Positions 3,233 through 54,889 of a stretch of DNA of 64,000 nucleotides are shown one piece after another. Every line of letters begins with the position of its first letter. The first letter of the stretch is position 1. The translations under genes were made by a program, and so were the position numbers. The stretch lies in NCBI GenBank assembly GCA_917880885.1, contig OU862934.1, positions 34,518,734 to 34,582,733 on the forward strand. Reading direction: 5' to 3'. Under the pieces are notes generated by a model. It was not told where the DNA came from. It saw only the letters and a program-made list of their open reading frames with translations, and ran no database searches. The DNA comes from Limnephilus marmoratus (lineage: Eukaryota > Arthropoda > Insecta > Trichoptera > Limnephilidae).

Positions 3233-3302
3233 TCCCCTCTCCCTAGGTCAGGTCAACCTTCAGCGATCCCGGATGGCCACACTGGAAGTACTGACCTCAA
3301 CA

Positions 3303-3600: not shown

Positions 3601-3800
3601 TCCGGGTGCGGTACTCTAAGTTGGCCGCTCACCAGGGGCGGGTGTCCTGGTCAACACTTCATTGATCAGTCCCCTCCTTCTGGCTGGTCTTTCTGATGAA
3701 TACCAAACCTGTGTATGTATTAGATTTGGGGACACTGAGATCTTCTTGATTTCAGTGTACTTTAAATTTGGGAATCCGGTAGTACACAAGTGTGACAAGT
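3600..3800 (+). pseudogene. APE-type endonuclease fragment of a LINE ORF2
   Basis: The frames around 3610-3790 read LVNTSLIS..LLAGLSDEYQTCVCIRFGDTEIFLISVYFKF. This matches the core of LINE apurinic-endonuclease-like domains (the 'IRFGDTEIFLISVYF' strand). Only about 60 residues survive and there is one frame change. It sits just upstream of an R2-type RT. R2 elements do not use an APE nuclease, so it is more likely a remnant of the ORF1-donating LINE. Confidence 0.5.
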
Positions 3801-3804
3801 ACAC

Positions 3805-5388
3805 ATGGCAGACAATGAGGTTGAAGAGGAGGCTACACCGCCACCGACTAATTGTGACATGACGGACGTCCGCATGCAGCTACAACGCCTGTGTGGTGAA
3901 CTAGCTGAGCATGACGGATATAAATGCGGTGAGCTAAGGTACATCGTCACTTTAGCCCTAGCCGGAGAGGACGTCGAGCCACGCTTAACCGCCTGGCTGG
4001 CTGACGTATTTCCGGCTCGCACCCGTCGTGTCGCGAATCGCAATGTTAATCACGATGTAGTCGACAATGTAAGTAGAAGAAAGAGGAGACAATTAGAGAG
4101 AAGGAGGAAGTACCGTCGGACTCAGGCCCGATGGCTGAAAGACCCGGGCTGTATCGCGAGGGAAATCATAAGCGGGAAGGAAGATGCTTCCCAAGATATG
4201 CCGGACTTGGAGGCCTTCGTTGAGGCATGGGAGCCGTTGATCGGTGAACCCAGCCAACCGTTTAACGAAGAGTCTAGGTTATCCCCAGTTCGAGATGACC
4301 TTCGCGCTCTCATGGAGCGACCGATCACCTTTGATGAGGCGTATGATGCGCGAGTCAAGGTGTCTTCAGCCGCGGGTCCCGATGGTATTACCGCGAGGCA
4401 ATGGGGGAAAACCCCCCGTTGTGTCATCTTATTTCTTCTGAATCTCATTCTCTTTACGGGACATCCCCCAACGGTCTTAACCACCGCAAGGACAATATTT
4501 ATAGAGAAAGGTGAGGCTAGCCCAAGGGCTTTGGATTACCGTCCGATCACCGTGCAATCGGTGGTCTTAAGGCATTTCCACAAAGTTCTGGCTAGGAGGC
4601 TAAACAGAGCCTTTTTGAACGACAATACGCAAAGAGCATTTATTAACGCCGACGGAGTTGCGGAGAACCTGCACATAATGCAGACTGTATTATCGTCAGC
4701 CCGCAACAACATTAAAACCGTCCATATGGTAGTTCTTGATGTCTAAAAAGTATTTGACTCGATTAGTCACCACGCACTGTTGGCCGCCCTCGTGCAGCTC
4801 GGCCTGCCTACCCGATTCGTCGAGTATATAGGCCGGTTGTATGCGGACGCGTCGACTGTATTTCAGGTGAAAGGCAGACGTTCTAGCGCTCTAAAGGTCC
4901 GTCGCGGTGTGAGACTATTCAATTTTATAATTGACATAGCGCTGAGGGCCCTTCCGAACTATTCGTGTGACGGGGGAGCGCGCCAGCGCGCTCGCCTTCG
5001 CGGATGACGTGTGCCTGTTGGCTTCGACGGCCGCAGGCTTGCGAGCAGCTTTGTCTGCATTCGAATCTGAACTAGCGAAACGGGGCCTATATTTGAATGC
5101 TGGGAAGAGCCTAACCGTTTCCCTGGAGGCTTCGGGAAGAGAAAAGAAGGTTAAGTCGGTGGAGGGGTCCTTCACCGCAGATGGAGCCATTCTACCGTCG
5201 GCGTCTTCTCTATCGACCTGCAAATACCTGGGCTTACGGTTTGGGCTCCATGGAGTAACCAATACGGACAAGATAGTCAATGTCTTAGGTGAGCTACTAG
5301 AGCGCATCGGACGTGGGGCGCTCAAACCGCAGCAGAGGCTACGCTTATTATTATTCCGACATACATCGGTTATTGATTGGGAGGCCTA
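3805..5388 (+). pseudogene. R2-type non-LTR retrotransposon, copy 1: N-terminal region and reverse transcriptase
   Basis: A reverse transcriptase of the R2 lineage. Visible blocks are RRKRRQLERRRKYRRTQ, SAAGPDGITARQW, LDYRPITVQSVVLRHFHKVLARRL, LDV-stop-KVFDSISHHALL, RRGVR..LFNFIIDIALRAL, AFADDVCLLAS and CKYLGLRFG. Lesions are an in-frame TAA at 4744-4746 inside RT motif A, loss of the QGDPLSP block at about 4910, and a frameshift near 4960 before the catalytic ADD. The DYRPIT..RHFHK block and the linked C-terminal REL domain fit R2 rather than R1. It ends abruptly near 5388 against a second copy. Confidence 0.8.
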
Positions 5389-16438: not shown

Positions 16439-16446
16439 TTTGAGAA

Positions 16447-17520
16447 TTATTTTGAATCATTGGTTTGCGTTGTCGGCATTCGGAAAATGTATTTTCTCAC
16501 AACTGAGAATTTCGGCCATATACTCGCATCCATAAGTTTTTCGTATGTTGACTCAGGAGTCCCAACTTTGAATGCTCGATATTCGCCAGATTTTGTCTGT
16601 AGTTCGTAGGCGACCGCATTAATACCGCTTTGCTTGAGAAAAGCGATAACATCTTCACAGGTTGTTGTTTTCTCCAGTCTTGTGACGAGAGCATATTTCG
16701 TCCTCTGCAAACCTTTAATTTCTGCATTTTCGTTACTGCCCAAAATGATGTTTTTCCTTTTTTTTGGTGGTGGTTGTGGATTTTTATACGTCTTCTTTTT
16801 CATGGATTTCCATTCTTGATTATCTTGGTTTTCGTTTTCACTTGAAGGGATGGTGTTGGCGACATCTGCAAATGATTTCGGGCGATTAAATGGTTTTTCG
16901 GTTTGAGGTTGGTCAAGTTTTGGATTTGTCTCCATAGATGGCATTGCGATGCTTTCACCTTTCGTGGGTTTGACCTTGGTATGAGGCTTTGGCGTTTCGT
17001 CAACAGATGGCACGATATTCATGCTATTACATGGTTTTGTTAGTTCATTGACATTAAGTTTGAGATTTTTTATTTCTGATTTTAATAAATCAATTTGTTC
17101 CTTAATCGCCAAATTCTTATCGTGGTCTGATTCATCTTTCAGTTTCTGTACATCATTTTTAATTATTATTAAGTCTCTTAGGAACGCAGTTGCGTCAATA
17201 TAATCAAAAGTCACCGGCGGTAGTTTGTTTATGTTTAAAACTGCAAATTGTGGTATATTGTTCGGATCAGTTTCTTTAAGAATTTTAATTATGTCACTTA
17301 AAATACGTTTTTTCTTACCTTCACCTACTCTCCTGGCAAAGGTTTTTTCCGGTACACATTTACACAGAACGGTTTTTGCGGACTCAATGTCTTCTTCGGT
17401 GAATGATTTATCACATATTATGTGCATAGTTTGCTCGTCCATCACGTCCATCTTTTGTTGTATAAACGCAAGGATCTCGTTCACAACAATCCCGCACGGG
17501 CAGCCTCCGATTAGAGACAT
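16447..17520 (-). CDS. LINE-1 ORF1 protein
   Basis: Intact 357-residue protein immediately upstream of ORF2, expected to bind the element RNA. The N-terminal part (about 1-115: EILAFIQQKMDVMDEQT, SFTEEDIESAKTVLC, RILSDIIKILKET) is shared with the decayed LINE at 32960. Next comes a helical, coiled-coil-like stretch (about 120-165: KNDVQKLKDESDHD, KEQIDLLKSEIKNLKLNV). A Pro/Lys-rich linker and a C-terminal RNA-binding-like region (about 270-350, RLEKTTTCEDVIAFLKQSG) follow. No CCHC knuckle was seen. Confidence 0.8.
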   Translation of the reverse strand: MSLIGGCPCGIVVNEILAFIQQKMDVMDEQTMHIICDKSFTEEDIESAKTVLCKCVPEKTFARRVGEGKKKRILSDIIKILKETDPNNIPQFAVLNINKLPPVTFDYIDATAFLRDLIIIKNDVQKLKDESDHDKNLAIKEQIDLLKSEIKNLKLNVNELTKPCNSMNIVPSVDETPKPHTKVKPTKGESIAMPSMETNPKLDQPQTEKPFNRPKSFADVANTIPSSENENQDNQEWKSMKKKTYKNPQPPPKKRKNIILGSNENAEIKGLQRTKYALVTRLEKTTTCEDVIAFLKQSGINAVAYELQTKSGEYRAFKVGTPESTYEKLMDASIWPKFSVVRKYIFRMPTTQTNDSK

Positions 17521-17700
17521 TCTCGGTTATTTTTCGTGTTGTTTTTATTATTTATTTACTTTTAGTTCGCGGAGTACGGAATACGAGTTGTAATCGCGAC
17601 GCCACCTATTGTTTTGTATTTATAATACTTATATAGTGCAATTGCATAGCGTGGGTTGACTAGATGATCATTTGGGGAAGTGTGTGAAAGGGTTTAGTTT

Positions 17701-32959: not shown

Positions 32960-34101
32960 ATGAATAACACGAAAAAAAGTGAAAAACTGATTATTAACGA
33001 ACTTTTAACGTTTCTTCAAAATACAATTGATGTCTTAGATGAACTAACTGCTGTGCAAATATGCTCCACACATTTCTCCGAAGACGATGTGGAGGCAGCG
33101 AAAGATATTTTGTGCTGTGAAACAGTTGGGCGCAGAATTATGAGGAAAGGCGAAGGTAAGAAGTGCAAGAATCTATACGACATTATTAAAATACTGAAGG
33201 AAACAGAAAATGAAGCCCTACCAACCTTTGTGGCTCAGAATCTGCACAAACTACTGCCTGTAAATTTTTCAATCGTATAGACGTAACATGTCTATTAAAA
33301 GATATCATGGGACTAAAGGGTGAACTTTTTACAATTCAATCGCAAATGTCCAAACAAAGCGATCTGGAAGTTTTGCGCTGTGAAATGGCCCTTTTAAGGA
33401 AAGAACTGAAAACAAACAATCACAACCATGTTCGAAATCAAGACGTAAATACATCACCGTCCTTGAATACATTAAAGGTCACCATACCAGTAGCACTAGA
33501 GAAGAACCGCTCGATCCCAACCTCGCCACTTAAAGAATTACAATTCGACGATGCCCACTGCAGTAATGTGATAATACAGCACACCCCGCCTCTCTTGCAT
33601 ACCCCTAAACAATGGAATAAAATAGCTGCATCTAATTCTCATGCACAACAGAAACTATCACAGGTACAACACCCTGAATTAGCTCAAAATATTCGCACAC
33701 AATATGATAAAAATGCATACAAACCAGTGACAACGAATTCTAATACGGAAGGTTTTAAAACTGTTACCAGAAAACCACGTAGATCGAGAAATATAACAGG
33801 CACAGCAACAGGTAACTCACTTAAAATAGCCGAACTAAAAACAATGCTCTACGTATTGAGGTTCGACAATAGTGTAACTGAGAATAATATTCGAAACTTT
33901 ATTGATAGTAAAATAACAGCGAATAACATCCAAGTGGAAAAAATTACTCAACGAAATCCCAGACATTTTGGATCCTTTAAGTTGACTATACCGAATAAGG
34001 ATTTCAAAACCTACATGAACAAAGAATTTTGGCCAACAGGTACTGTTTTCCGAAAATTTATTGAAAAAAAAATGCAATGGAAGGGAACAAAATTAAAATA
34101 A
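32960..34101 (+). pseudogene. LINE-2 ORF1
   Basis: The N-terminal part (LLTFLQNTIDVLDELTAVQI, FSEDDVEAAKDILC, DIIKILKETENEALPTF) aligns with LINE-1 ORF1. A one-base frameshift near 33269 produces a stop at 33278-33280, after which homologous sequence (RIDVTCLLKDIMG) continues in another frame to 34101. The C-terminal part contains FKTVTRKPRRSRNITG and a region like the LINE-1 ORF1 end (KEFWPTGTVFRKF). It overlaps the start of ORF2 by 25 bp. Confidence 0.75.
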
Positions 34102-36865
34102 TCTCGATAAACTGCAAAAGCTTTAAAAGAAACATTAACTTCATTATAGATATGTGCGATATATACGATGTAATACTTTTGCAAGAAACGTGGCTATTAC
34201 AAAACGAAACATCTAATCTATCCAAAATTCATCCGAACTTTCAGGGATGGGGCACATCTGCCGTAGATTTAGCTAACGGGCCACTGAGGGGACGACCCTA
34301 TGGAGGAGTCGCGGCACTTTAGAGGAATGAGCTGCAAGCTTCCGTAATACCATGTGGAGATGACCGCATCGCTGGTATTCAGATAACCACCAAAGGAGGG
34401 ACAATATGTGTACTGACTGTCTACATGCCGGTATGTCATGCGGACAACCTTACTGACTTCACCAACTACCTGTCCAAAATATATTCGATCATTCAAGACA
34501 ACGAATACTGTGAAACCATCGCGATGGGAGATTTCAACGCTCACCCATCTTCTGTATTTGGGAAAGAACTATCATTTTTCTACACTGAAAATAACTACAG
34601 TTGTATCGATATGGAAAGACTACCCAACGACACATATACATATGTTAGCGATGCTCACAATACCACTTCCTGGCTCGATCATTGTATTTGCACTAATAAC
34701 CTCAAGGACAAAATACATAATCTGTATATACACTATGATACTGACTGGTCCGATCACCAGCCGACATCTTGCATAATCGCTGCTGAAAACCTACCTGCAA
34801 CCGTCTTTAATGCCCCGAAACAGCCTAATAATATAATATGGCGAAGGACTAACAACAAGAAAATAAATGAATATACGTCTGTGGCAGAAGCATTACTCCA
34901 TGTAACTTATCAAAGACACTCCGAATCCATATGTAATTCTGAGTCTACATGCGATCATATGCAAAGCATGGACAATATGTACACAGATATCGTGGAAGCC
35001 CTAAGAAAGGCTGTCAACATTGTATTCTATTGGGAGAGCAATCATAGCGAACCAAAAACATTTCGTCACATTTCCGGGTGGAATCAAAAAGTCAAGGAAC
35101 ACTACGAAAAATCCAGATCGGTATTGATGACGTGGATTCAAAACGGGAGACCATCACAAGGCCCCATTGCGGATGAAAGAAAACAGAAAATGAAGGAGTT
35201 CAAAAGAGCCCTCAAACACTGCCAAAGCTCTGCCGAACAAACAAAGATGGACGAAATTGTAAAATCGCTTGACACAAAACAGTTTGCTCAATTCTGGAAG
35301 AAAAGCAACAATCTGATCAAACCAAACGCTCGAATCGCCAGCCAAATTGACGGGTCCATAAATACGGAGGAAATCGCCAGGACATTTAGAAGAACCTTTG
35401 CAGATATTTCCGGAAACGAAGCACCGACTGCTCCTGATATTATGGAATATGATGGACAAAACGTCTTCCTCTCTGAAAATAATATAATGAAGGCCATCAA
35501 AGCTACTAAGGCCGGTAAATCTCCGGGACATGATAGTTTAAGTATTGAACACATAAGGTACGGAGGTAGATACATACCTAAACTACTAAACATTCTGTTC
35601 AATGCAATCCTCAAACACAACCATCTACCGAGTGCAATGACGAAAACCATTATAACCCCGATCCTGAAATCAGGAAAGCCCGATACGACCAACTCCAGCA
35701 ATTACTGGCCAATATCCCTGGCAACTATAATTGCAAGACTATTTGAAAGGGTAATCCTGAATGAAATAGAAGGTAAACTCAATTTTAAACACAATCAGAT
35801 GGGCTTCAAGTACAGATTATCCACTAATATGGCAATATACTCGGCTAAGCAAATAATAAAATATTACAAGAAACGAAAAACTACTGTATACGGATGCTTC
35901 TTAGATCTGAGCAAAGCTTTCGACAGGGTCTGTCATAAAACCTTAAGGGAGAAATTGAAAGCCAGAAATATACCTACTATGTATATCAACATACTATCCC
36001 GATGGCACTCTCAGCAGGAAAACGTTGTACGGTGGGCAAGTACGTACTCCCAACCGATATATTTGCGATCAGGAGTAAGGCAAGGAGGCTGTATGTCCCC
36101 AATCCTGTTCAATGTATACATGGACGAATAATCAAATCGCCGGACACCAGGGCGGGTTGTCGTATTAATAATTTATGCCTAAATCACATAAGCTATGCGG
36201 ACGACATGATTCTCCTAGCTCCGTCGATCAAGGGGTTGAGAACATTATTAAAAATCTGAGAAGAATATGCAAATGACCACAACATGATGTACAACCCCAA
36301 GAAGACGGAACTAATCGCATTCCACCATGGAAAAAATCCCGAGAAAATGCTCCCTGTAAAACTTAATGAGGAAAACATAAACGAAGAATGTAAAATAGAA
36401 TGTAAAATACTTGGGACACATTATTACTGAAGACCTCTCGGATGACGGTGATATTGAACGACAGCGGAGAAGTATCGGTATACTGTCTAATATGATTGCC
36501 CGAAGATTCTTCAAATGCAGTAACAATGTAAAAAAAAACATTGTTCAATGCATTTTGCACTAGCAGTATACACATGTGAAACATGGTGTCACTACCGAAC
36601 CAGCTCAATAGAATGACTCCGGATCCAATATAATGATGCTTGCAGAATTATATTTGGATACAGAAGATACAGCAGCGCATCTTCAATGTTTATGGAGCTA
36701 GGACTACACGGATTCGCCGGTCTGATGAGACACCGGGTCACTGGAGCCAGGATGCGGCTAATGGCTTCCGATAACACAGTGGTGATCGCAGCCTTCCAGC
36801 ACCAAGCGCCACTCCTGAGCGAGCGCTGGGCCCGAGCTCACTTCAGACCACGTCCTACATTATAA
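34077..36865 (+). pseudogene. LINE-2 ORF2: APE endonuclease and reverse transcriptase
   Basis: Homologous throughout to LINE-1 ORF2: ISINCKSF, LQETWLL, GDFNAHPSS, WSDHQPT, GKSPGHDSLSIEHIRYGG, GCFLDLSKAFDRVCHK, SGVRQGGCMSPILFNVY and YADDMILLAPS. Lesions are a TAG at 34320-34322 at the position of the Trp in LINE-1 'AILWRN', a frameshift near 36125 after FNVYMDE, a TGA at 36257-36259 (Cys in LINE-1 'ICEEYA'), and further frame changes near 36400 and 36545. The end near 36865 matches the LINE-1 C-terminus. Confidence 0.85.
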
Positions 36866-41237: not shown

Positions 41238-41314
41238 TTGACATGGACCCCCTCATGTATTTGATTAAGAGGAAGTCACAATAGTCCAGGCAACGAAGGA
41301 AAAACAGAGGAAAT

Positions 41315-41737
41315 TTTTTTTTTTTTTTTTTTACAGTGAATACCGCACAAGAATCTCAACTGCTCCCGTCTGGAGCCAGTGAGACTATGGCATCTCCAAT
41401 TGGGGTATGTTGTGAGGCTGAAGGTAGCGGGGAGGGGAAGGAGGTGGGGAAGAGGAAGGTTGGGAAGTACCTGGCTATTCAGATCTGGTCACTAAACACG
41501 GCTAAAGCCATTTTCAAGCAACGTTTCAATTCTGAATGGTGGTCTTACACCAGGGCGATACTGATAGTATCTTCCACTCTGGAACATGCCGCAAATATAC
41601 TATATATTATTTTAAATGAATTAATTGTGAAATAACACAAATTAATCAAATAAAATTTATTTGCGCATGCCGGGTTCGAACCCGCGACCTCCGGAATGTG
41701 AGTCAAGAGTCTTAGCCACTGGACTACGGAGGTCGTC
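41315..41737 (-). mobile_element. SINE-A copy 2, with 7-bp TSD
   Basis: Complete tRNA-derived SINE. The head GACGACCTCCGTAGTCCAG (41737 downward) has a perfect B box (GGGTTCGAACC, 41672-41682), the body is as in copy 1, and the poly(A) reads as a T run at 41314-41332. AGGAAAT is duplicated at 41308-41314 and 41738-41744. It interrupts the left terminal arm of element A. Confidence 0.8.
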
Positions 41738-42046
41738 AGGAAATAATTTGTGTAGAAGCCAATTTTGGCACAGTTGTAGGGGAAGGTGTCCTTAACGACA
41801 TACTAAAAGTATCGGGGGGTGGGGGGGATCTCTAAAGGTCCCTTTTTTCAGTTTTTCGTTAATAACTCGAAAACTACTGCCTCTAGCGAAAAAATGTCTA
41901 CAAACTAAATTAACGAAATTATTTTTTTTACAAAAAAGGCTTTATAAACTTTTTTGTTAGGATCAATGCTTAAGGATATATAAAGGGGGGAAATGTCAAA
42001 TAAAAAAAAACTTCTTAAAATTTTGCAAATTCACTTTGTGGCACCA

Positions 42047-42405
42047 TTTTATTAATGAAATAATTAAAAACACTTTGTTTTTACCACAATAATCTTTATA
42101 TAAAAGTCAACATGTTTCAAGAATGATCTTCTCTTCATCAGGACATTTAATGTACTGAAATGTCCTGATGAAGAGAACATCTTTCTTGAAACATGTTGAC
42201 TTTTAAATAAAGATTATTGTTTCACCAGAAATATAAATTAGTTCACTGGTGAAATATAAATTAGTAGAAGAAAGTACAAAAGTGTTATAATTTCAAATTC
42301 TAATACAATGGAATTCCACCACGAATTATCAGTGCAAGAAATAGACTCATTAAAGATTATTGTGGTAAAAACAAAGTGTTTTTAATTATTTTATTAAAAA
42401 AAACT
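42047..42405. mobile_element. Two-layer foldback element
   Basis: Outer arms: TAATTAAAAACACTTTGTTTTT..CACAATAATCTTTA at 42058-42095, inverted at about 42350-42400. Inner arms: AAAGTCAACATGTTTCAAGA..CTTCATCAGGACATTT at 42104-42150, inverted at 42158-42205. It lies in the left arm of element A and is absent from the right arm. Confidence 0.6.
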
Positions 42406-42429
42406 GTTTTTATTGTTAAAAATTAAATT

Positions 42430-42840
42430 TTTATTCTTAAAAATGAAATGGAAGAGAAGAGAGAGATCTTGACTATGCTGACCAGCATGGAGGAACTTAG
42501 TCCAGACAAAGTTGTCCAGACAAAGACCTTGGTGTCAGCTTAGACTAAATTTCAGAATCATCTGGAATCCCTCAAGGATAATGGGCCTACTGCTGCTTTG
42601 TGGGTTCAATAGATACTTCCACATGATTACCCTGATGAAGAAGTTCATTGATTCTGAGCATCGTGGTGTTTGGGACGGCTACTTGACGTGTGTACAGCAG
42701 ATTCTTCCATGCAAGTGGGCACTTCCAGTATGCAAAATGTGCCCATCTCTACGTGCAAGATATGATACAACTGAGAGCTAGCGTACAAGGAGTTTGCACA
42801 AAAATGGTACTTCACTATTAATCGCACAGATACACCTTGA
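42430..42840 (+). pseudogene. Left-arm inverted copy of the element A gene N-terminal region
   Basis: Plus-strand duplicate of the segment found minus at 46500-46960: FQNHLESLKDNGPTAALWVQ, MKKFIDSEHRGVWDGYL and YAKCAHLY-type blocks. It shows that the terminal inverted repeats extend into coding sequence, so element A is partly a head-to-head duplication. Confidence 0.55.
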
Positions 42841-43199
42841 TATACAGTACATATTGATTGTTGGTGGTGCCAATCCAATGAGAAGAAATATCATGTCCAC
42901 ATCCTCCCCAAATATTGCTACAGTTGGATGTACAGCAGCTTCATCCAACCCACACCTCACAATAGTGGTGTCAGCATCCCCTGTAGCATAAGGCGGCCAA
43001 CCGTCCCGCATTGGCGGCTGTAGTCCCGCTTTGAAATATTTGATAAAATAGTCCCGCAAATCGTCCAAAGCGTCCCGCATGTCCCGCATTCCTATATTTT
43101 TATAATATTGTTTATGGTGGCATATAAACTTCCTCTATCTGTATTCTATTTTAACCATTTCTGTTCTTCTGTGGTTAAGTTGATAACAATATTTGTTTA

Positions 43200-44030
43200 T
43201 TTTTTTATTTTAACTTTATGAGTAAAACCTCAAATTGTAATATTTAAATAAATGAAGACAATATAAGTGAAACTCAATCGAAAATCTGGAAACAGAAAAA
43301 TCAGAAAATCATATTGACACCTCTGGGACTCGAACCCAGGACCTCTTGCTTTCCGGGCAAACGCGCTAACCACTGCGCCACGGTGTCGATATGAAATTCG
43401 GTCATGTTTAACTGTACCATACTTCGACTAAGAACCACCTACATTATCTTCATTTTCTTTAACGCATATATTATTGGCAACTATCTTTATGTATGATTGC
43501 AAGATTCAAACCCGAACTAAATGCTATCTAGATAGCGTCTGGATAAATCTTTATCCATTTTATTTAATATGCGACATCTATCGACTTTTCTGCAAGTCTA
43601 GGATGAATATTTTTTTATTTTTTTATTTTAACTTTATGAGTAAAACCTCAAATTGTAATATTTAAATAAATGAAGACAATATAAGTGAAACTCAATCGAA
43701 AATCTGGAAACAGAAAAATCAGAAAATCATATTGACACCTCTGGGACTCGAACCCAGGACCTCTTGCTTTCCGGGCAAACGCGCTAACCACTGCGCCACG
43801 GTGTCGATATGAAGATAATGTAGGTGGTTCTTAGTCAAAGTATGGTACAGTTAAACATGACCGAATTTCATATCGACACCGTGGCGCAGTGGTTAGCGCG
43901 TTTGCCCGGAAAGCAAGAGGTCCTGGGTTCGAGTCCCAGAGGTGTCAATATGATTTTCTGATTTTTCTGTTTCCAGATTTTCGATTGAGTTTCACTTATA
44001 TTGTCTTCATTTATTTAAACAATATTTGTC
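43200..44030. repeat. Element T members 2 and 3, with a tRNA-like palindrome
   Basis: Three copies of one identical tRNA-like core: minus at 43316-43387, minus at 43734-43805 and plus at 43875-43946. The last two, with about 80-100 bp of flank each, form a large palindrome around a spacer at 43806-43874. The minus copy at 43200-43640 has the fullest element T flanks. Confidence 0.7.
43875..43946 (+). pseudogene. tRNA-like sequence, Ser(GGA)-like, in element T
   Basis: Cloverleaf: acceptor GACACC/GGTGTC, D stem GCGC/GCGC, anticodon stem TTTGC/GCAAG, loop CCGGAAA, T arm CTGGG-TTCGAGT-CCCAG. A and B boxes are perfect. A genuine tRNA-Ser would have a long variable arm, which is missing, and position 33 is C rather than U. 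It is therefore a tRNA-derived repeat rather than a working gene. Identical cores lie at 43316-43387 and 43734-43805 on the minus strand. Confidence 0.65.
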
Positions 44031-44269
44031 CCTAGAAAAGGTCCGAAGATATCAATCTAGGGATTGGTTTATTTAGGTAAGTCAAGCGAGAGTCAAAGAG
44101 GGCCAGTGTAGTATTGAATAAGTGCAAGCCGTGACACGTGATTGATAACCCATTTTTATCATTCAAATCAAATCAAAAAATTTGTTGAACATGCCGCCGA
44201 CCGCGAAAAGCGAAGTTGTAAGTTCACTGAATTTCCTTTTTTGCATAAATGTTTATCTTCATGTTCTGA

Positions 44270-45095
44270 GTATAGTTTAAATGCACCGCGTACGGTTATT
44301 CTTAATTACAAATAACCAGTTTTTTGTTCAGAATGTAAAATTCCAGCTGGATTCATCTGATGACATATTTCGAAGGAAAACAGTCTCTTCGAAGTGCAGT
44401 TATAAAATTTTAGTTGTTGACTATGTTTGTGCTGCCAGAATCAAAGTGAAACCATTCATGTTCTGAGTGTAGTTTTAATGCGCCGCATACAGATTTAATA
44501 ACCAGTTTTGTGTTCAGAATGTAAAATTTTAACTGGATTCATCGGATGACATATTACGAAGGAAAACATTCTCTTATTCGAAGTGCAGTTATACAATTTT
44601 AGTTGCAGACTATGTATGTTCTGCCAGACTCAAAAAGAAACTATTTTCATATTCTGAGTGTGGTTTTATTTCGCCGCATATAAATTTAATTTAAACCAGT
44701 TTTGTGTTCAGAATGAAAAATTTCTGTTGTGGATTCATCTGCTGACACTTTTCGAAGGAAAAAATGCTCTTATTTGTAGTGCAGTCATGAAATTCTAGTT
44801 GCAGACTATGTTTGTTCTACCAGAATCAAAGAGAAACTATTTTCGTATTCTAAGTGTGTGTTTTATTTCGCAGCATACAAATTTGATTTAAACCAGTTTT
44901 GTGTTCAGAATGAAAAATTTCTATTGTGGATTCATCTGCTGATACATTTCGAAGGAAAATTTCTCTTATTTGTAGTGCAGTCATAAAATTCTAGTTGCAG
45001 ACTATGTGCTATGTGTGCTGCCAGAATCGAAGAGAAACCGTGTTCATGTTGTGATTGTAGTCTAAATGAGCAGAATTCTCGATTTCCGAGAGAAG
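44270..45095. repeat. Four about 190-bp tandem units in hAT
   Basis: GTTCAGAATG recurs at 44326, 44512, 44706 and 44903 (steps 186, 194, 197). Each unit contains GGATTCATCTGATGACA, TTCGAAGGAAAA, GTGCAGTTATA and GACTATGT..GCCAGA. Confidence 0.7.
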
Positions 45096-45920
45096 GATAA
45101 ATTTGTAACGTACCTACCCCCCCATTGATATTTTGTAAAGTTGGCCGCCTTACTGTAGCAACACTTGTTTCAATGACGGTTGCTGTCATTTTCTCACTGA
45201 GCAAGGGAATCAGTCTTGTTTTGTTCCTATCATTAGCAAGAAAAAGCTCTTGTTCATCTGTGATGGTCGTGCTTTCATGAAAGTTGATGTCAACAGAAGT
45301 TTTTGTGAGCCCTCTTCGCTTCTACTTGCTCGTTTTGTGCTGTTGACATCACAATAACCATCAAAACTACCGTACAATTGATTTCCTCCTTTTCGCATTC
45401 CTCCCTGGCTGAACAGAGCCAGGGGTATGAAGTTAATTCATTTGTCAAAAGCTTTGCTACATCTTTGTCATTCTTTTTTGCTATGACAGTTCTTTGGAAA
45501 ATTGTCAAGAGGGTTAATAGTAACTTTCTCACCATTGATTTTAATGGTGCTGCTCATACTGGCTATTGTCAAAACCACATTCTTTCTAGATTGTTTCATG
45601 TCACCACATTTGGTGCCAATGAAACTTTGCTTAGTTTTGGTTCCAATATCCAAGACTTATTGGCAGTTTATTGTGGAATTTCCCAGGATGCCCACTGTCA
45701 GCGACATTAGTGAACCCAACTTTGGAATAGGGGGATGGTCATTGAACCATTCATGAATCTTGGCTCGATCTCGTGAATCTCTCGTTTGCCGTGATACCCG
45801 GAAATCAACGTGCTGCTCTCCAGTTGCGAAAACCACTTCATCAAACTCCGTCAATGACGTGCAGATGGCGGTGCCCCCGGGTGATCCACAAACCCACTTG
45901 GCGAATACAGAATCAGTAAT

Positions 45921-46448
45921 ACGCCCCACGGTTGAATTTGGCAGCCATCTCTGGTCTGGAGCTCCAAAATACCTGAAAAATACCCTCGACTCTGTGCAGA
46001 AACGGGCGGTCCGTTTGATAGATTCTCCCATCTTAACAGACGGATTGCAATCTTTAGAGCACAGGCGTCGGGTGGGAATGCTATCCTTGTTCTATCGGTA
46101 TTACAATGGAAGATGCTCCGAGGAACTAGCATCATTGATCCCTTCGGCACCGGTGCATAGTCGGGAAACACGCCAAACGCGTGCCCAACATTTGTACACG
46201 GTTGACATTTGTCACATGAGAACGGGTCGTTTCTTCGACTCGTTCTTGTGTTCAACAGCTTGGCTGTGGAATGATTTGCCGGCCTCTGTGTTTCCTCCTT
46301 CCTACAACATGGGTCTCTTCAAGACCAATGTTCATTCCTTCCTATCCTCAAAAAGACCCTCCACACAGCATCCCAGATGACATAGGCCCTGAGGGAAATT
46401 ATTTTCCTCAGGGCCTCCTGTGTGGAGTTAAGGTAAAAAAAAAAAAAA
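45921..46448 (+). mobile_element. 5'-truncated LINE insertion with 6-bp TSD
   Basis: The C-terminal tail of a LINE ORF2 is visible: VEFGSHLWSGAPKYLKNTLD, VQKRAVRLID, LEHRRRVGMLSLFYRYYNG, TAWLWNDLPASVFP; stop at 46378-46380. After it comes a short 3' UTR with a strong hairpin (GGCCCTGAGGGAAAT / TTTCCTCAGGGCC) and an A tract of 15. AGTAAT is duplicated at 45915-45920 and 46449-46454. It interrupts the element A gene inside GRG-ITDS. The 3' end is shared with SINE-B. Confidence 0.75.
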
Positions 46449-47266
46449 AGTAATTTCTCTTCCTCGCGTCAGGCCACCTGAACTCTTCATGGAGTGCATA
46501 AGTGTTTGTTCTATGACCACATCCGATCAAATACTGCCCAAGATGTACCTGTGCGATTAATAGTGAAGAAGCAATTTTATGCAAACTTCTTGTACACCTC
46601 CGGATGGCTAGCTTTCAGTTCAGATAGGCACATTTTGCGTACTGGAAGTGCCCACTTGCATGGAAGAATCTGCTGTACACACGCCAAGTAGCTGTTCCAA
46701 ACACCACGACGCTCAGAATCAATGAACTTCTTCATCAGGGTAACAATGTAGAAGTGTCTATTGAACCCACAAAACAGCGGTAGGCCCATTATCCTTGAGG
46801 GATTCCAGATGATTATGAAATTTAGTCAAAGCTGACACCAAGGAAACTCTTCAACTTTGTCTGGAGTAAGTTCCTCCGTGCTTATCAGCATAGTTAAGAT
46901 CTCTCTCTTCTCTTCCATTTCATTTTTAACAATAAAAACTGTTTTTTTTTTTAATTCGACATTTTCACCCTCCATATCTCATTAAGCATTGATCCTAACA
47001 AAAAAGCTTATAGAACCTTTTTTGTAGAGAATTTTATGTAAATAATTTAGTTTTCCAAAAATTTTTTCGCTAGTTTTCGAGTTATTAACGAAAAACTGAA
47101 AAAAGGGACCTTTAGAGACCCCCCCCCGCACCCTTAGCTCCACCCCCACCCTCCCGATACTTTTAGAATGTTGTTAAGGACACCTTCCCCTACAAATGTG
47201 CCAAAATTGGCTTCTACACAATTATTTCCGCTATTCGGTCTTTTTTGGTCTTCGTTGCCTGGACTA

Positions 47267-47669
47267 CTGTTGTGGACTACAAGCCAAAGATGTATTAATT
47301 TTTAGTGTGCCTTATATTGCCATGAATATACGAGTAGGTGATAGGCTTACAAAATTGCTTTGCAAACGGAATCTATAGGTCAAGATTTCAAGTACAATAG
47401 TGATTTTTTTAATAATTTTACACGAAAGAAAAAGTAAATCTATGGAAACTGTCACAGATAATTATAGCCATAAAATAGTATTTTATGGCTATAATTTCTT
47501 TTATATTTTTGAATTTAAAAAAAAAAACATATTTTAGTAGTTTACGCTTATATTTTTTATAAAGTAATTAACAATTTTATCATATTTCTAACCAACGAAA
47601 ATGATAGGAGAAGCTTCAATTTATCCAATTATTTCATGCACGCCTGATTACGGAGGCAATTGAAATCTA
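47267..47669. other. Spacer, nothing recognised
   Basis: AT-rich. A short palindrome ATAATTATAGCCATAAAATA..TATTTTATGGCTATAAT lies at about 47458-47494. No gene. Confidence 0.35.
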
Positions 47670-48365
47670 CAAAAATCCATTTAATATTAATAGAGACGAC
47701 GGAGTTAAGCTCAATAGCTCTTGGTATCCGGTAATTGACGGCTACACCAGCTAAACGCAAAAAAAACCATGTATAAGTATATAGTAATACCAGCTCATGG
47801 TAAACCATTTTGTTTACCTTTATATTGACTAAATTCGTTTTAACCGTTGTAATTCTAATTCTAAAATTCTTACCATTATTCTTCTTCTTTCATATGGGGG
47901 GGGGTCAGAGGGGGACATCTAGGTCTGCGAGCCAGTCTAGGGCCTCAGGCGACTTACCATAATGATTTCTAATTTTTAGAATTCGTTAAGAGATGGAGCC
48001 ACTTCCGTCGGCATTTCGCAAACGGACTTGCCCTGGCTAGCATAAATACCACGATTAAGTGAACTTTCTATTCCGTTCCGCGGCAATGACGCCACTGCTT
48101 ATCGCGGTTATTCTGTACTGGTGAAAGTTAGTGGAGCTGGCCACACGGTATCGCTTCGAAGTAAATAAGCACACACTTCACCACTAAAATTACACATCTA
48201 CCGGATCTGCCGGATCTGCCGGATCTGCCGGATCTGCCCTGATGATGGACACTGCAACGACGTCCGAAACGTTGGCTAAAGAAGGACGTAGCGCAACACG
48301 GCATAACACCCCAAAAACAAATAACGAGAATGCTTTGGCCGTGAAAATTCTAAACCGTATCATTC
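47670..48365 (-). repeat. Repeat family F, copy 2 (unoccupied hAT site)
   Basis: Inverted relative of 27640-29345, running straight across the point where that copy holds a hAT (about 48045-48060). It includes a (CCGGATCTG)x4 expansion at 48201-48237 not seen in copy 1 and ends with the CAACGTTTCGGAC..GGGGTGTTATGCCG terminus. Confidence 0.65.
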
Positions 48366-48515
48366 AAATTGTTGTATATTTCCCTATCAAATACTAGTGA
48401 CTTCTCTTGTAGCTATACTAGCGACATCTAGGATATCTTATAAACCACTACTAGCACCACTAGCACTAGGGCCATCTATGTTACGAAGCTCAAATTATCA
48501 CTTGATATTGTTTGA

Positions 48516-48702
48516 ATGATTGACACACATAACTGTGCAGTATTCCTGTTGGCCGGTGCGGTCTCTGGCTACGTGTGTGGAGAGTGGTGTGCGAATCCGA
48601 AGGCTCAAGAACCCTTGTGCGCTGAATCCTCCACCACCCATATCAGAAATGGATTCCCCAACCAGTGCGTCCTCTTCGACTCCAACTGCTTTGAAACCGA
48701 GA
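48516..48702 (+). CDS. Kazal-type secreted protein, exon A
   Basis: 62 codons plus one base. An apolar stretch (AVFLLAGAVSG) suits a signal peptide, followed by YVCGEWCANPKAQEPLC, then FPNQCVLFDSNC. This matches the insect Kazal-like pattern 'F-x-N-x-C-x-L-x-x-x-N-C'. The exon ends at a GTAAGT donor (48703). I list the ATG at 48516, but an acceptor AG at 48539-48540 could mean the signal peptide begins in an upstream exon. Kazal proteins usually inhibit serine proteases or act as secreted ligands. Spacing between the third and fourth Cys is longer than in classical Kazal inhibitors. Confidence 0.65.
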
Positions 48703-48840
48703 GTAAGTAATTCCTTAAATCTACGCAATGCACTTGTACTATTTTCTTGTGTGAGTCCAAACTACATTCTATGTTACAAACAAATAAGTTTCATCATCAC
48801 CAGCCAAACGGCAGCCAAAAATATGGGAAATAATTGAACA

Positions 48841-48990
48841 TAATGTTTCTAATTCAGAGATGGAAGTATAAGACTTATAAAAGGTGGTGGAATGTAATAA
48901 GGTAGCAATAGCTCAGTTGGTAGAGTCTCAGTCCCGGTAAGGCTAGAGGATCTGGGTTCATGTCCCAGTTTCGACAAATACCTTTTTATT
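48841..48990 (+). repeat. Element T, member 5, tRNA-like core at about 48902-48975
   Basis: A box TAGCTCAGTTGGTAGAG is canonical and the B box GGTTCATGTCC is near-canonical. The T stem CTGGG/CCCAG is intact and the anticodon loop region reads CCCGGTAA. Acceptor pairing is poor. The downstream CCTTTTTATTTTATG is like element T at 29346. Confidence 0.5.
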
Positions 48991-49435
48991 TTATGAGGCG
49001 CGGAGCATGCAGTGAGAAATCTTCAGATGTTGATAATTAAACACAAGCTGAGGTCCCCGGCATTGCCCGGTATACCCCGGTAAGCCCAGTTCCCGCAGGA
49101 ATTTCTATTTGAGGCAATTCAAGGTATCCCTTTCCCAGCTCCAAGTGTACAGGCGCGGAGCATGCAGTGAGAAATCTCCAGATGTTGATAATTAAACACA
49201 AGCTGAGGTCCCCGGCATTGCCCGGTATACCCCGGTAAGCCCAGTTCCCGCAGGAATTTCTATTTGAGGCAATTCAAGGTATCCCTTTCCCAGCTCCAAG
49301 TGTACAGGCGCGGAGCATGCAGTGAGAAATCTTCAGATGTTGATAATTAAACACAAGCTGAGGTCCCCGGCATTGCCCGGTATACCCCGGTAAGCCCAGT
49401 TCCCGCAGGAATTTCTATTTGAGGCAATTCAAGGT

Positions 49436-50896
49436 CAGCGCCGGATCTGCCATACGTTCAAAAACGTGCAAAAAACCTGGCGCCAACTCCGAAGGGGCGC
49501 CGTGAGAAAATAAATATTGTATTAAAAATTTGTTATAATATTCCCTGAATCGTTTAAAAATTTCCCATAGTACGAAATAATTATTACGCTCTAGCAACAC
49601 TTTCCAAAGATACAGACTGCGCACGCATCTGGTTTGAATTCAACGAAATTCAACGATTTACGAATTTATAGTCAGTTACAGAATTTTTTTACAAATTCCA
49701 TATATTTAGTTTAAACGTAAGATCTATTTTTCCATATATCTTTTACTGTCTTTTACGACGAATGAGTGCGATCCAAATTCATTAACCAATCACAGCGCCG
49801 TACTTTTATTCAAGAGAACAAACCAACCGTCGGCGCCTTTCAAAATGCTTTTGTACGAATTAAGTCTCTAGGAGAAGGGACTTAAAGACCATTTTCTTAT
49901 GAAATCTTCAGTAAATTCCATTAGCATAAACATCGCACAGTTTGCAACAGAACAGTTTCATCATTGATTTGACAGTTGAAGTTCGTTAAATGTACCTACA
50001 ATTAATTTCTATTAGATTTGTTATTTTACAGTCAGTAATAATCAGTGTAAGCGTCTTTCGTAAGCCGTTGATACCATAGATACGTTCGTGTTTGTTCGCT
50101 CAACACAGAACACAGGGGAAATGGAAATGCAAGGTACAAATTTGAGGTTATATTATTATATTATTATTATTATTATTAGATTTTTTAATTTATAACTACA
50201 TTTCTATTGGTTGTTAGAGGTTGTGGATTGTGGATTACAATGAATAGAACAATAATTAAAAAAAAACTTTCAGGCTCGCAGAATCTAAAACTTAGAATTA
50301 AAGAGCATAATGACATAAAAAAACTCGTTTCCATTGGGAATTTTTTATTCCAATTTCTCCAGCACCGATAAAAAGTGATGTCCCGCGCAATGACGTTACA
50401 ATAGTCCCGAGCACATCTAAACAGATATCTATCGCACAAATTCCTCCGGTCGAATTATTAGAAGATAAAAATAACGTCACTGATAGCAGTTTAAATTTAA
50501 TTCTGTTTTCAGAGCTTGAATTGAAAGATCCCGGATGCTGGCCAAAGTTATCTCAAAATTCCATTAGTTTATTAGTTCAGGAAGGTCCTGTACAATTGAA
50601 AGGTTTTCATTTTCCTATTACGAACAAGCGTAAATTTAATACTAAGTATTATTACAAGAAACTGCCTAATGGAGAAGAATTACATAGATCGTGGCTTATT
50701 TATTCGAAAACTTTAGATAGGGTTACACCCTTTATATGTCTTGATTTTATTTGATAAATTAGTGTAAAAAAAAAAAAAATTAAATAAAAAAAAAAATTGG
50801 GGTAAACGAATTTTTAATCAAAATAAAAATGTAGGGGGGGGGGGGCGCCATCGGTACCTACTGCACAGGGTGCTAGATTTCGTAGATCCGGCCCTG
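49436..50896 (+). mobile_element. hAT element, same family as 28050-29086, with transposase remnant
   Basis: CAGCGCCGGATCTGCC start and CCGGCCCTG end. TTCAAGGT is duplicated at 49428-49435 and 50897-50904, confirmed by unoccupied array units reading ..ATTCAAGGTATCCC. It is 1461 bp and retains the N-terminal part of a transposase. The rest was lost by internal deletion. Confidence 0.88.
50370..50754 (+). pseudogene. hAT transposase N-terminal fragment
   Basis: Open from about 50349 to the stop at 50752. It contains ELKDPGCWPKLSQNSISLLV, QEGPVQLKGFHFP and KRKFNTKYYYKKLPNGEELH, then RSWLIYSKTLDRV. This is the 'DPxxWP...LVxxGP...R.WLxYS' pattern of the TTF-type zinc-finger region at the front of hAT transposases. 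The protein breaks off before the finger's cysteines, the catalytic domain and the dimerisation domain. Confidence 0.75.
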
Positions 50897-51259
50897 TTCA
50901 AGGTATCCCTTTCCCAGCTCCGAGTGTACAGGCGCGGAGCATGCAGTGAGAAATCTTCAGATGTTGATATTATCTCGGTTGATAATTAAATACTAGCTGA
51001 GGCCCACAGCGTTGCCCGATCATTCTCACTGTAAATTATTCATAAGTAATCCAAGCGCAAAAAAAATACGGGGTAATCTTGCAATTCACTACATCGCCAG
51101 TCACTACAGTGATCAAGAAGACATTATTATGTATTCATTTAAGTAAATGGGATTCCCCGGTTTCGTCACGGAATAAGAAATAAAAAATTCCGTGCTCATT
51201 TCAACGGTCCGAATCGTAGGTGCGACAAAAATATGAAATGAAATGGTTTAAATTTTTAC

Positions 51260-51351
51260 AAAATAATATTATTGTTTTTTGTGAAAATTTGCCGCCCCCC
51301 TTAAAAGTGTCGCCCGGGGCGGGCCGCCCCTCCCCCCACGCTACGCCACTG
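51260..51351. mobile_element. hAT terminal-like fragment
   Basis: The inverse strand reads CAGTGGCGTAGCGTGGGGG followed by GGGCGGCCCGCC, a common hAT end in insects. I could not find its partner end, so only the terminus is called. Confidence 0.4.
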
Positions 51352-51663
51352 ATGCAATTCCAAATTAGCTCAATTCTCTACATGGTGTGCAGCTGTATTA
51401 AAAAGTATGAGCAGCAGGGAAGAATTAGTTGCAATGATAGTAGCCGCTGACCGCTGGTGCATGGCAAGCAGACAAATCTCAAATGGATGGAAGATTTAAT
51501 CAGCAGATAATTGCACCCATGAAGTTGGGGTAGAAACCACTAACTACCAGTGAACCACTCAGCTACTTCTGTATGGATACCTCCACACATGGTGTTAGTG
51601 TGTAGTTATAGATTTTTAAATTATTGTCATTTTAAACTGACATAAATTATCTTTTTTTTTCAG

Positions 51664-51737
51664 AGTTCCGTTTCGTTCACGATGGCCCTTGCACTCGAGA
51701 ACAAGATAGTTTTGAAGCGAGAAATATGACTGCTTAA
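51664..51737 (+). CDS. Kazal-type secreted protein, exon B (C-terminus)
   Basis: Completes the split Lys codon and then reads FRFVHDGPCTREQDSFEARN and MTA-stop. The F-x-F-V-H-x-G-x-C end is the expected final strand and last cysteine of a Kazal domain. With exon A the product is about 86 residues with six cysteines. The stop is TAA at 51735-51737. Confidence 0.65.
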
Positions 51738-51843
51738 AAAAAAAATTTAAAAAAACTATTTTGGTATTTGTAATGACTAATTACTTACATTAGTTGCTTT
51801 TAGTATTTTCACGTTTACGGAACGATGACGATACAAAAAAAGC

Positions 51844-51849
51844 AATAAA
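51844..51849 (+). terminator. Polyadenylation signal AATAAA for the Kazal gene
   Basis: AATAAA lies 107 bp after the stop codon in an otherwise ordinary AT-rich 3' UTR. Confidence 0.45.
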
Positions 51850-52288
51850 CATAATACATATATTTTCATTATAATGCTGCAGCTCTTTCTTATACTTTAA
51901 ATAATGGTGAGACAAAAGATGACACACATAGTACGTATGTCTATGTGTGTCATCAGGCGATACTCAGAACCGAAGAAACTGCAACCTGAGAAGGAGAAGA
52001 GCCGACCCCAACAGCCTACCTGGCAAGGAGTCGGGACAGCGCAAGGAAGAAGTCATTCAGTAATCGTGGGAATAGTAAAAGCGCCTATTGACGGAAATTT
52101 TTTCTTTATTTAATACAAATAATTTTATTTCATAATGGAAATTTTAAATGGGGTAAGGGACAAAATGTTAATTGTTGCAGGAGAGCACAAAAAAAGGTTT
52201 TTAAAAAAAAAACATATCTTCTGTAGATTTATTTATGATTGATGAATTTATAATACAAATATATGTATGTATATTTATTTATTCTGAA
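51850..52288. other. Spacer after the Kazal gene
   Basis: No feature recognised. A palindrome around GATGACACACATAGTACGTATGTCTATGTGTGTCATC lies at 51919-51955. Confidence 0.35.
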
Positions 52289-52448
52289 TATTTGGGTGCT
52301 TCCCCGCCTTCCTTTTTCTCATCTCCTTCCCCTCCCCACTAACTTCAGCCTCACAACATACCACAATTGAGGATGCCGCTGTCTCACTTTGTCTCCAGGC
52401 GGTTGGGAGCAGTTGGGACTCTTATGCGGTATTCGTATAAAAAAAAAT
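52289..52448 (+). mobile_element. SINE-A copy 3, 5' truncated
   Basis: Matches the last ~155 bp of SINE-A (CATCTCCTTCCCCTCCCCAC, CCTCACAACATACC, GAGCAGTTGGGACTCTTATG) and ends in an A tract at 52439-52448. The tRNA head is missing. Confidence 0.65.
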
Positions 52449-52659
52449 ACCGACTTGCCCAAAATCACTGGTTGTTACCTATAGTCAAGGCAATCAAGAC
52501 CAAAAAAGACCAAATAGCGGATATAAATCATGTAGAAGCCAATTTTGGCATAGTTGTACGGGAAGGTGTCCTTAACAACATACTAAAAATATCAGGGGGT
52601 GGGGGTGGAGCTAAGGGGGAAAAACTTAGGAACTTACTTCTTAAAAACCTTAAAAAAGG

Positions 52660-53255
52660 GGCTTAACCCAATGACAATTTTCCAAAGAACTATCATAGCA
52701 AAAATGATAGACAAAGATGTAGCAGAGCTTATGACAAATAAATCAACTCCGTACCCCAGGCTCTGTTCAGCGAGGGAAGAATACGAAAAGGAAAAAATCA
52801 TCCCTCTACGATGTTTTGCAGTAGAGGACAACGCAACTCTCGATCTCACCCAGAGCACTAATGTGGTAGATGGTGGTTTCCTTCTCCACTGCATGTAAAA
52901 GAAACAGTCCTCCTACATTTCTTCAATTTGCCATCAGTACATTTCACATGTACAGAAACATTACGGTGAAAATTGTACGCTGGTTTTTTATGGTTATTGT
53001 GATGTCAACAGCACAAAATGAGCGGAGCAGAAGCGAAGAGATCTCACAAAAACTTCTGTTGACATTTTTGAAAGCACGACCATCACAGTTGAACAAGAGC
53101 CTTTTCTGCTAATGATAGGAACAAAACAAGACTGATTCACTTGCTCAGCGAGAAAATGATAGCAACCGGGATTGAAACAACTGTTGCTACAGGGGATGCT
53201 GACAGCACTATTGTGAGGTGTGGGTTGGATGAAGCTGCTGTACATCCAACTGTAG
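52660..53255 (+). pseudogene. Element B gene, central and C-terminal part
   Basis: Plus-strand frames give FQRTIIAKMIDKDVAELMTN, STPYPRLCSAREEYEKE, STNVVDGGFLLH, the F(D)GYCDV-like stretch, then TGDADSTIVRCGLDEAAVHP. All correspond to minus-strand blocks in element A. Several stops. Homology ends just before the GEDVD motif at about 53260, where sequence switches to the inverted arm. Confidence 0.5.
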
Positions 53256-53289
53256 CAATAGTTGGGAAGCCAGGCCGTGGGAATGTGGA

Positions 53290-54250
53290 GATCGATTTGT
53301 TTTTGGTGCGACAACTTTAACAGCTTCCAATCGCCAAAACGATTCTCTTTCTCCATAGTTTCTCCGGATGCGACACCACCTCGGCGATACATGGAAAGAG
53401 TAAAGTGGAAATCACTAAGCTCTTCACATAAAATCCTGGCCTCACCAAGACGTTTCAGCAATATTCACAGATCCCTCAGCAGTGTTTGTACTATGACCAT
53501 ATCGATTAATAGTGAAGTACCAATTTCTGCAAACTCCTTGTACGCCCCTGTATGGCTAGCTTTCAGTTATATCATATCTTGCACGTAGAGATGGCAACAT
53601 TTTGAATACTGGAGGAATCTGCTGCACACACGCCAAGTAGAGATGGATAAGTTCTGCATTTTGCCGGAGGCCTCCGAGACGTGCTTCCTTTTAAAAGTAC
53701 TTGAGTTCTTGGAGCAGGCCCCGGGAGCCACTCCCGACTCGCGAATGGTCCGAGCGCGCAAAAGAATTCAAACGCGCAACCTGCTTCCTACTCGCAAATG
53801 GCTCGAACCGAGACGCTCGGGTTCCACCCTAGCAGGAGCTCGCAAAAGAACTCGAATGCGCGACCTACTCCGACTCGCACATGTGGCCCGGACCGTGACG
53901 CACGGGTTTGACGAGTGTGAACTGCCACCATGCCGTGCCGCGCTGCCACCCGGCTGTGGCTCGTCCCGCCGAGTTCCAGCTACAAGTACTGTACCGGGTT
54001 CTTTGGGAGTAGTCGATTTGAAAAGGGAGTAGGAGTAGGAGCCGCTTCGCGTGAAGAACCTGAGTTTAAGAGCCCACTCCATCTGAACCTATACATCGCT
54101 AACGCCAAGTAGCTGTCCCAAAACACCATGACGCTCGGAATCAATGAACTTCTTCATCAGGGTAAACATGTGGAAGTATCTACTGAACCCACAAAGGCCG
54201 TTATCCTTGAGGGATTCCAGATGATTCTGAAATTTAGTCAAAGCTGACCG
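53290..54250 (-). pseudogene. Element B gene, N-terminal part in inverted right arm
   Basis: Minus-strand frames give KFQNHLESLKDNG, RYFHMFTLMKKFIDSE, LACVQQI, then RLGEARILCEELSDFHFTLS and MYRRGGVASGETMEKENRFG. The block order differs from A because this arm is rearranged, and a hAT MITE interrupts it. It provides the RLGEAR..SMYRRGG block, which is missing or unreadable in A. Confidence 0.5.
53638..54101. mobile_element. hAT MITE (TAGAGATGGATAAGTTC ends), 8-bp TSD
   Basis: 464 bp, locally GC-rich. Ends TAGAGATGGATAAGTTC and the inverse TAGCGATGTATAGGTTC (13 of 17 identical). ACGCCAAG is duplicated at 53630-53637 and 54102-54109. The equivalent site in copy A is unoccupied (ACACGCCAAGTAGCTG at about 46681). 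Confidence 0.85.
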
Positions 54251-54889
54251 TTTAGCCATTTCATTTTTAACAATAAAAATTTAATTTTTAACAATAAAAC
54301 TTTCCTTTTTAACAATAAAAACTGTTTTATTTTTTATTTTTTTTATTTGACATTTTCACCCTCCATATCTCATTAAGCATTGATCCTAACAAAAAAGCTT
54401 ATAGAACCTTTTTTGTAGAGAATTTTATGTAAATAATTTAGTTTGCAAATATTTTTTCACTAGAGTCAGTAATTTTCGAGTTATTAACGAAAAACTGAAA
54501 AAAGAACCTTTAGAGACCCCCTCACCCTTAGCTCCACCCCCCCCCCAATATTTTTAGTATGTTGTTAAGGAAAACTTCCTCTACAACTGTCCAAAATTGG
54601 CTTCTACACGAATTAGTTCCTCTATTTTCTCTTCGTTGTCTGGACTACTACAATCAAAGGCACATTCAACAAACAAAACCATTTTTTTTTGCTTGCTGTA
54701 AGTATTATGTAAGGAGGATATTATTTCAATAAAATTATATAATAAATATATCGAACTATAAATAAACTAACCCAAAAATTAGCCGCACAATATTTTAACA
54801 ATTTGTAATACATAGCAACAAGTACATATTATAAATACGCTGGTTGTGATCATGTGGGCCTGTGTCATCTTTAGGGATGTTATGTACGG

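Follow-up and report, generated by a model that had tools for sequence, protein, structure and literature searches.

A 64,000-nucleotide stretch of the Limnephilus marmoratus genome (assembly GCA_917880885.1, contig OU862934.1, positions 34,518,734-34,582,733; hereafter the window) carries two genuine insertions of a DNA transposon, both of which are decayed, internally deleted derivatives. These copies are non-autonomous members of a cut-and-paste family that very probably belongs to the AcademX branch of Academ, a placement made by matching described features and not by sequence comparison. An earlier sequence-only reading of the window had proposed a DNA transposon with terminal inverted repeats that belonged to an undescribed superfamily and carried a nuclease-like gene instead of a recognizable transposase. 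The transposon itself is borne out by its ends at four window sites, by 3-bp target-site duplications and by empty sites. The full-length protein, however, has a predicted DDE fold in its other half, and an undescribed superfamily is unlikely, as the same features are already in print in the account of AcademX in PMC10045372.

Termini, Target-Site Duplications and Empty Sites

The terminal sequence TAGTCCAGGCAACGAAG is matched four times in the window with at most three mismatches, against a chance expectation of 0.12, and these matches delimit two elements, at 41282-47266 (copy 1) and 52482-54647 (copy 2). Copy 1 and the 54647 end had been placed correctly by the sequence-only reading, but copy 2 starts at 52482 and not at 52492. 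Across the host assembly (1.63 Gb in 67 contigs), the 17-bp end is found, with one mismatch or none, at 642 places, the first ~100 of which were listed individually, versus 3 places for the reversed pattern.

Comparing copies, along the lines that had been proposed, fixed the termini and the duplication. The sample comprised 33 two-ended copies, namely 31 loci fetched from the host's own genome in which both ends were recognized (L-numbers; P-numbers denote related proteins) and the two window copies, with places covered by two loci counted once (L043 is the same place as L042). An exact 3-bp duplication flanks 27 of the 33, compared to a mean of 2.5 and a maximum of 8 in 2000 shuffled pairings. 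It is lacking at L018, L020, L022, L042, L059 and window copy 1, the last being flanked by CAA and CTG; L059 reads as a 4-bp duplication, a single such case being within chance (control 0.55). At L020 (C7:11816949-11818211), the two flanks together form a near-palindrome (atatccatatta / tagtatggatat). In a second family of the same genome, 6 of 7 copies have a 3-bp duplication, and in a third, judged by eye from the printed flanks, TTA is duplicated at L052 and L053 and mismatched at L054 (two of three).

Among the fetched loci, a spanning match was found for 4 of 29 joined flanks. Two of these empty sites are clean, L012 versus L037 (97%) and L057 versus L051 (91%), and agreement at L026 and L050 is 70-79%. 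As the clean sites carry the duplication sequence once, the ends of the element are fixed.

The Full-Length Element and Its Sister Families

Full-length copies are present at L049:3319-8678 (5360 bp) and L050:3187-8537 (5351 bp). They are 98.8% identical, their ends start TAGNCCAG, and their terminal inverted repeats of ~412 bp (90.7% over 386 aligned bases) lie outside the gene. The open reading frame of L050 encodes 1232 amino acids (aa), the N-terminal part of which is in another frame in L049, and the 3' end seems to include an intron.

The window has no DNA-level match to ~402-2573 of this ~5.35 kb element, a segment that in L050 contains the first and second candidate catalytic aspartates (element 1783 and 2305), and no significant match between the DDE half and the window was found at the protein level. 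The transposase thus seemed absent from the window because both copies are without the DDE-coding segment. The claim that both carry the same gene holds insofar as its peptide blocks can be recovered, some residues changed, from pieces scattered over both strands; the gene itself is broken by stops and frame shifts and intact in neither copy, with GEDVD in copy 1 only and GCDTTS in copy 2 only. Other pieces of the element are gone as well, and foreign repeats have been inserted.

A genome search with P0005, a 417-aa relative, scored the best 100 of 8711 first-look candidates and listed 101 matches. Of the matches listed, those at 58-76% identity form one group, the family of the window copies, and a larger group, at ~41-46%, contains two further families (~45% and 41% identical to P0005), in both of which the gene lies between similar ends. 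The third family (L052-L054, on C1, C3 and C15) has ends TACTCCAGTCAA and frames of 1498, 1498 and 1389 aa, and its copies are 98.6-99.9% identical, suggesting recent activity.

The Encoded Protein

The element encodes a single protein, 1440-1565 aa long in most full-length relatives. From N- to C-terminus, it is laid out as Cys/His motifs, a predicted DDE domain, a nuclease of the FEN1/EXO1/XPG type and a CXC tail rich in cysteines. The fold test of a homologue that the sequence-only reading had called for predicted a FEN fold in the nuclease half and an RNase H-like fold in the other. The predicted model of this other half is structurally most similar to the P element, Transib, Hermes and RAG1, contains a large helical insertion of the P/Transib/RAG1/hAT type, and has D84/D87, D250 and E492 as conserved residues; Foldseek alone gave no match for it at E 0.001 (best 0.32). 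The models indicate, at the level of fold only, that the transposase half is of the DDE type. The position three before the invariant H281, where a C/DxxH motif was looked for, is G in 56 of 56; this motif sits between the second D and the last E in the hAT, P, MuDR, Kolobok and Dada group, as described in PMC9587614.

The predicted model of the nuclease half has a FEN1/EXO1/XPG fold that holds GDAD, GEDVD and GCDTTS, and its acidic motifs VDGG, FDGY, DAD, EDxD and GCD are found in order, so that GDAD and GEDVD had been correctly read as FEN-like. Their single-residue correspondence to FEN1 catalytic residues is our assumption. Based on the model and these motifs, the nuclease half belongs to the FEN1/XPG family and is predicted to cleave in a structure-selective manner.

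A protein search with one 144-aa window piece found a single relative, probably due to length limits, and a read-through joined from pieces of both window copies served as the second query. This matched 124 proteins at E <= 0.001; sources given among the 120 listed include insects, a spider, a sea spider, a lobster, a fish, hagfish, a sea anemone and a snail. With the L050 frame as query, 53 relatives were found, including those of Parnassius mnemosyne (78%), the coral Dendronephthya (41%), Photinus, Temnothorax and Bemisia; 30 of the 53 are 1440-1565 aa long with motifs at similar positions, the motif patterns missing some. Viral contigs held no relative, with either a close or a profile query. 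For the 25 of these relatives that are found in "lgn" or "ena" sources only, the longest contigs measure 4506-6608 bp, which is what assemblies breaking off at the ends of a repeated ~5.5 kb element would give, a circumstantial fit, since its lower bound follows from frame length alone.

Relatives, if given a name at all, are usually called "hypothetical", "uncharacterized" or "unnamed", or are named after the cysteine-rich tail; several owe their name to a Tesmin/TSO1-like CXC domain. Precomputed Pfam annotation is blank for 117 of the 120 listed proteins and for all 53 relatives of the L050 frame. Pfam found nothing relevant on single window pieces and, on longer proteins, sub-threshold matches to XPG_N (P0017, E 0.0019) and others. 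On 50 aligned members it found DUF6589 in 3 (best E 1.4e-4) and XPG_N, NYN and 5_3_exonuc_N in one each. DUF6589, which could represent a fungal relative, maps to the DDE half in P0151 and P0155 and is precomputed for P0071; P0049 and P0087 have other Pfam domains, probably fused.

The sequence-only reading had left open whether the nuclease was the mobility enzyme or cargo. A host nuclease gene carried by an unrelated terminal-repeat element would be consistent with the resemblance of the nuclease half to cellular FEN1/EXO1, but is extremely unlikely: the DDE-like domain lies in the same open frame, the common length and similar motif placement hold for 30 of 53 relatives, and three families of one genome, the window's and the two at 41-46% identity, have this gene between similar repeats. 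The gene thus appears to be the element's own. The notion of a host gene was rejected on the same grounds and on the membership results given below.

Palindromic Derivatives and the Proposed Mechanism

Inverted arms reach into the gene of the window copies, for instance at 42527-42748 / 46622-46843 (94% complementary), as had been seen from the sequence. Similarly, palindromic two-ended copies elsewhere have arms of 1465 (L010), 1457 (L011), 1446 (L039), 1433 (L042), 1158 (L015) and 742 bp (L012), and in the second family, where seven copies were measured, the arms are 741-948 bp long. L010, L011, L039 and L042 are near-perfect palindromes of 2.9-3.3 kb, with 89-97% of their length inside inverted repeats, and three of the four, all except L042, have matching duplications. 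That palindromes are frequent and mostly flanked by duplications would fit a foldback-type function of the extended arms in transposition, and the sequence-only reading had suggested such a part in the mechanism. This is very unlikely, as the two full-length copies have only their ~412-bp repeats, outside the gene, and derivatives such as L016, L019, L025 and L027 are without extended arms. The head-to-head arms are a mark of deletion derivatives that have become palindromic; such derivatives are frequent among the copies examined. A common junction near element 3826/3928 makes L010, L011, L012, L039 and L042 look like an amplified subfamily; the junction of L041 is different, and in the window copies the nuclease part adjoins an N-side segment (2574 onward) that is inverted.

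The window copies, which lost the DDE-coding segment, are most simply explained by internal deletion and inversion through template switching during gap repair; being non-autonomous, they would have moved only in trans. In the mechanism and division of labor that we infer, the DDE domain would bind the inverted repeats as a paired complex and would cut and join strands, staggered joining to the target giving the 3-bp duplication, and the structure-selective XPG domain would trim flaps or finish second-strand cleavage at excision.

Features of the Two Copies and Their Surroundings

Table 1. Features of the two transposon copies, in window coordinates, with corresponding positions in the full element.
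Feature	Window position	Strand	Full element	Remark
TAGTCCAGGCAACGAAG match	41282-41298	+		
TAGTCCAGGCAACGAAG match	47250-47266	-		
TAGTCCAGGCAACGAAG match	52482-52498	+		3 mismatches
TAGTCCAGGCAACGAAG match	54631-54647	-		1 mismatch
Copy 1	41282..47266	-		decayed, internally deleted palindromic derivative; gene mostly on minus strand
Left terminal inverted repeat, outer part, copy 1	41282..41310	+		
Other repeat, breaking left terminal repeat of copy 1	41311..41738	.		boundaries approximate
Left terminal inverted repeat, inner part, copy 1	41739..42030	+	39-331 plus, 5010-5324 minus	
Inverted second copy of segment coding LESLKDNGPTAALWVQ / FHMITLMKKFIDSE / CVQQILP	42450..42839	+	2574-2978	
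Gene fragment: GDADTTIVRCGL and VAIFGEDVDMIFLL	42848..42988	-	3999-4139	XPG/FEN nuclease motifs
Foreign insertion, not element	42989..45152	.		2164 bp; splits copy 1 gene
Gene fragments: DFRVSRQ, HPPIPKLGSLMS, KINGEKVTINPL, FDGY	45153..45920	-	3064-3606, 3778-4006	
Interrupting sequence, not element	~45921..46448	.		A run near right end
Gene fragment: MKKFIDSERRGVW...SDVVIEQTLMHSMKSSGGLTRG	46449..46916	-	2574-3069	
Right terminal inverted repeat, copy 1	46916..47266	-	1-360	
Copy 2	52482..54647	+		decayed palindromic derivative; 3-bp duplication CTA/CTA
Left terminal inverted repeat, copy 2	52482..52619	+	1-138	
Gene fragments: VDGGFLLH, GDADSTIVRCGL, SFSGCDTTSAIHGKSK	52663..53481	+	3467-4083, 4146-4362	
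Inverted gene fragment, copy 2	53503..53613	-	2852-2963	
Inverted gene fragment: HLESLKDNG, MKKFIDSERHG	54102..54248	-	2658-2809	
Right terminal inverted repeat, copy 2	54264..54647	-		

The repeat that breaks the left end of copy 1 belongs to a family that recurs in several fetched loci, the full-length copy in L050 sitting within it, and a tRNA-like stretch was spotted by eye at 41660-41740. The foreign insertion in the gene is bounded by inverted ends of 13 bp (TAAGGCGGCCAAC) and flanked by CTGTAGCA, an 8-bp target duplication without mismatch, at 42981-42988 and 45153-45160. It is another transposon, lying within copy 1, and the length of its duplication suggests a hAT- or P-like element. 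Three sequences within it score as tRNA-Ser (GGA), at 43315-43387, 43733-43805 and 43875-43947; they lie (43238-44024) in direct and inverted repeats of 158-216 bp at 99-100% identity and look like a young tRNA-derived repeat. A frame in the interrupting sequence of copy 1 reads, we presume, like the end of a reverse transcriptase of the non-LTR (long terminal repeat) type.

Outside the two copies, long open frames (936, 359, 295 and 602 aa) are found at 13646-17526 and 33214-36131; we take these to read like ORF1/ORF2 (open reading frames 1 and 2) of non-LTR retrotransposons, possibly recent insertions. At 48996-49460, a 155-bp unit occurs three times in tandem, at 86-100% identity to its first occurrence, and pieces related to it lie at ~50897-51018; a weak Rfam tRNA match is present at 48902-48976.

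Relationship to Academ and Other Transposons

In relating the family to Academ, we take the AcademX nuclease to be of the XPG type. AcademX, a lineage for which PMC10045372 cites Kojima 2020, is described there as combining a DDD/E transposase, a nuclease and duplications of 3 or 4 bp. The present family has a 3-bp duplication, a nuclease, terminal inverted repeats and a length near 5.5 kb (5351 and 5360 bp), and agrees in its DDD/E transposase at fold level only; unlike here, palindromic derivatives go unmentioned in the AcademX account of PMC10045372. The curated bivalve Academ elements of PMC10294476 have a mean length of 5565 bp, and PMC9143410 reports Academ in Bemisia, the genus in which P0004 and P0155 are found.

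Several points weigh against this placement. Academ is poorly represented outside bivalves in the sample of PMC10294476, yet the present family is common in insects; furthermore, Pfam scarcely detects the protein, the match to Academ rests on description and not on sequence, and the DDE half is structurally closest to the P element. The last three would also be expected of a separate, unnamed DDE superfamily that gained its XPG nuclease independently of Academ. We consider this unlikely, as a DDD/E transposase, a nuclease and a duplication of 3 or 4 bp together are the AcademX features as given in PMC10045372, and 5.35 kb suits the curated Academ mean. Quite unlikely, too, is a family outside Academ, in a DDE superfamily nearest P/Transib/RAG, whose fused FEN/XPG domain is an obligate second catalytic center and whose palindromes are more mobile as XPG processes their structures.

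The fixed ends, the duplication and the DDE and FEN/XPG domains allow these proteins, a family widespread in animal genomes yet mostly nameless, to be masked as transposons and left off lists of host genes. It becomes testable why a transposase should have a flap nuclease of its own, and whether this nuclease determines the short duplication, in line with what was proposed for AcademX versus AcademH (PMC10045372). AcademH, a sister lineage within the Academ superfamily, is described there with a helicase and duplications of 9 or 10 bp, duplication length being linked to the encoded nuclease or helicase. An AcademH identity was rejected, since the duplication here is 3 bp and the Pfam scans made gave no helicase match.

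The P element, Transib, RAG1 and hAT (Hermes) match in fold only, and no FEN/XPG nuclease is known in any of them. Duplications are 8 bp in P and hAT and 5 bp in Transib, compared to 3 bp here. The P element superfamily was rejected accordingly (8 bp there, whereas 27 of the 33 copies here have 3 bp), the resemblance being structural only. FEN1, EXO1 and XPG share the fold and the ordered acidic motifs, but here these are fused to a transposase in a transposon, at 9-18% identity among the matches listed. As in Foldback- and Galileo-type elements, there are non-autonomous copies whose inverted arms grow into the element; long arms are typical of the whole family in those palindromic transposons, whereas here they occur in derivatives only. 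The element is thus most likely a well-resolved new example of the Academ-type kind and not a new kind, the combination being already in print in the AcademX account of PMC10045372.

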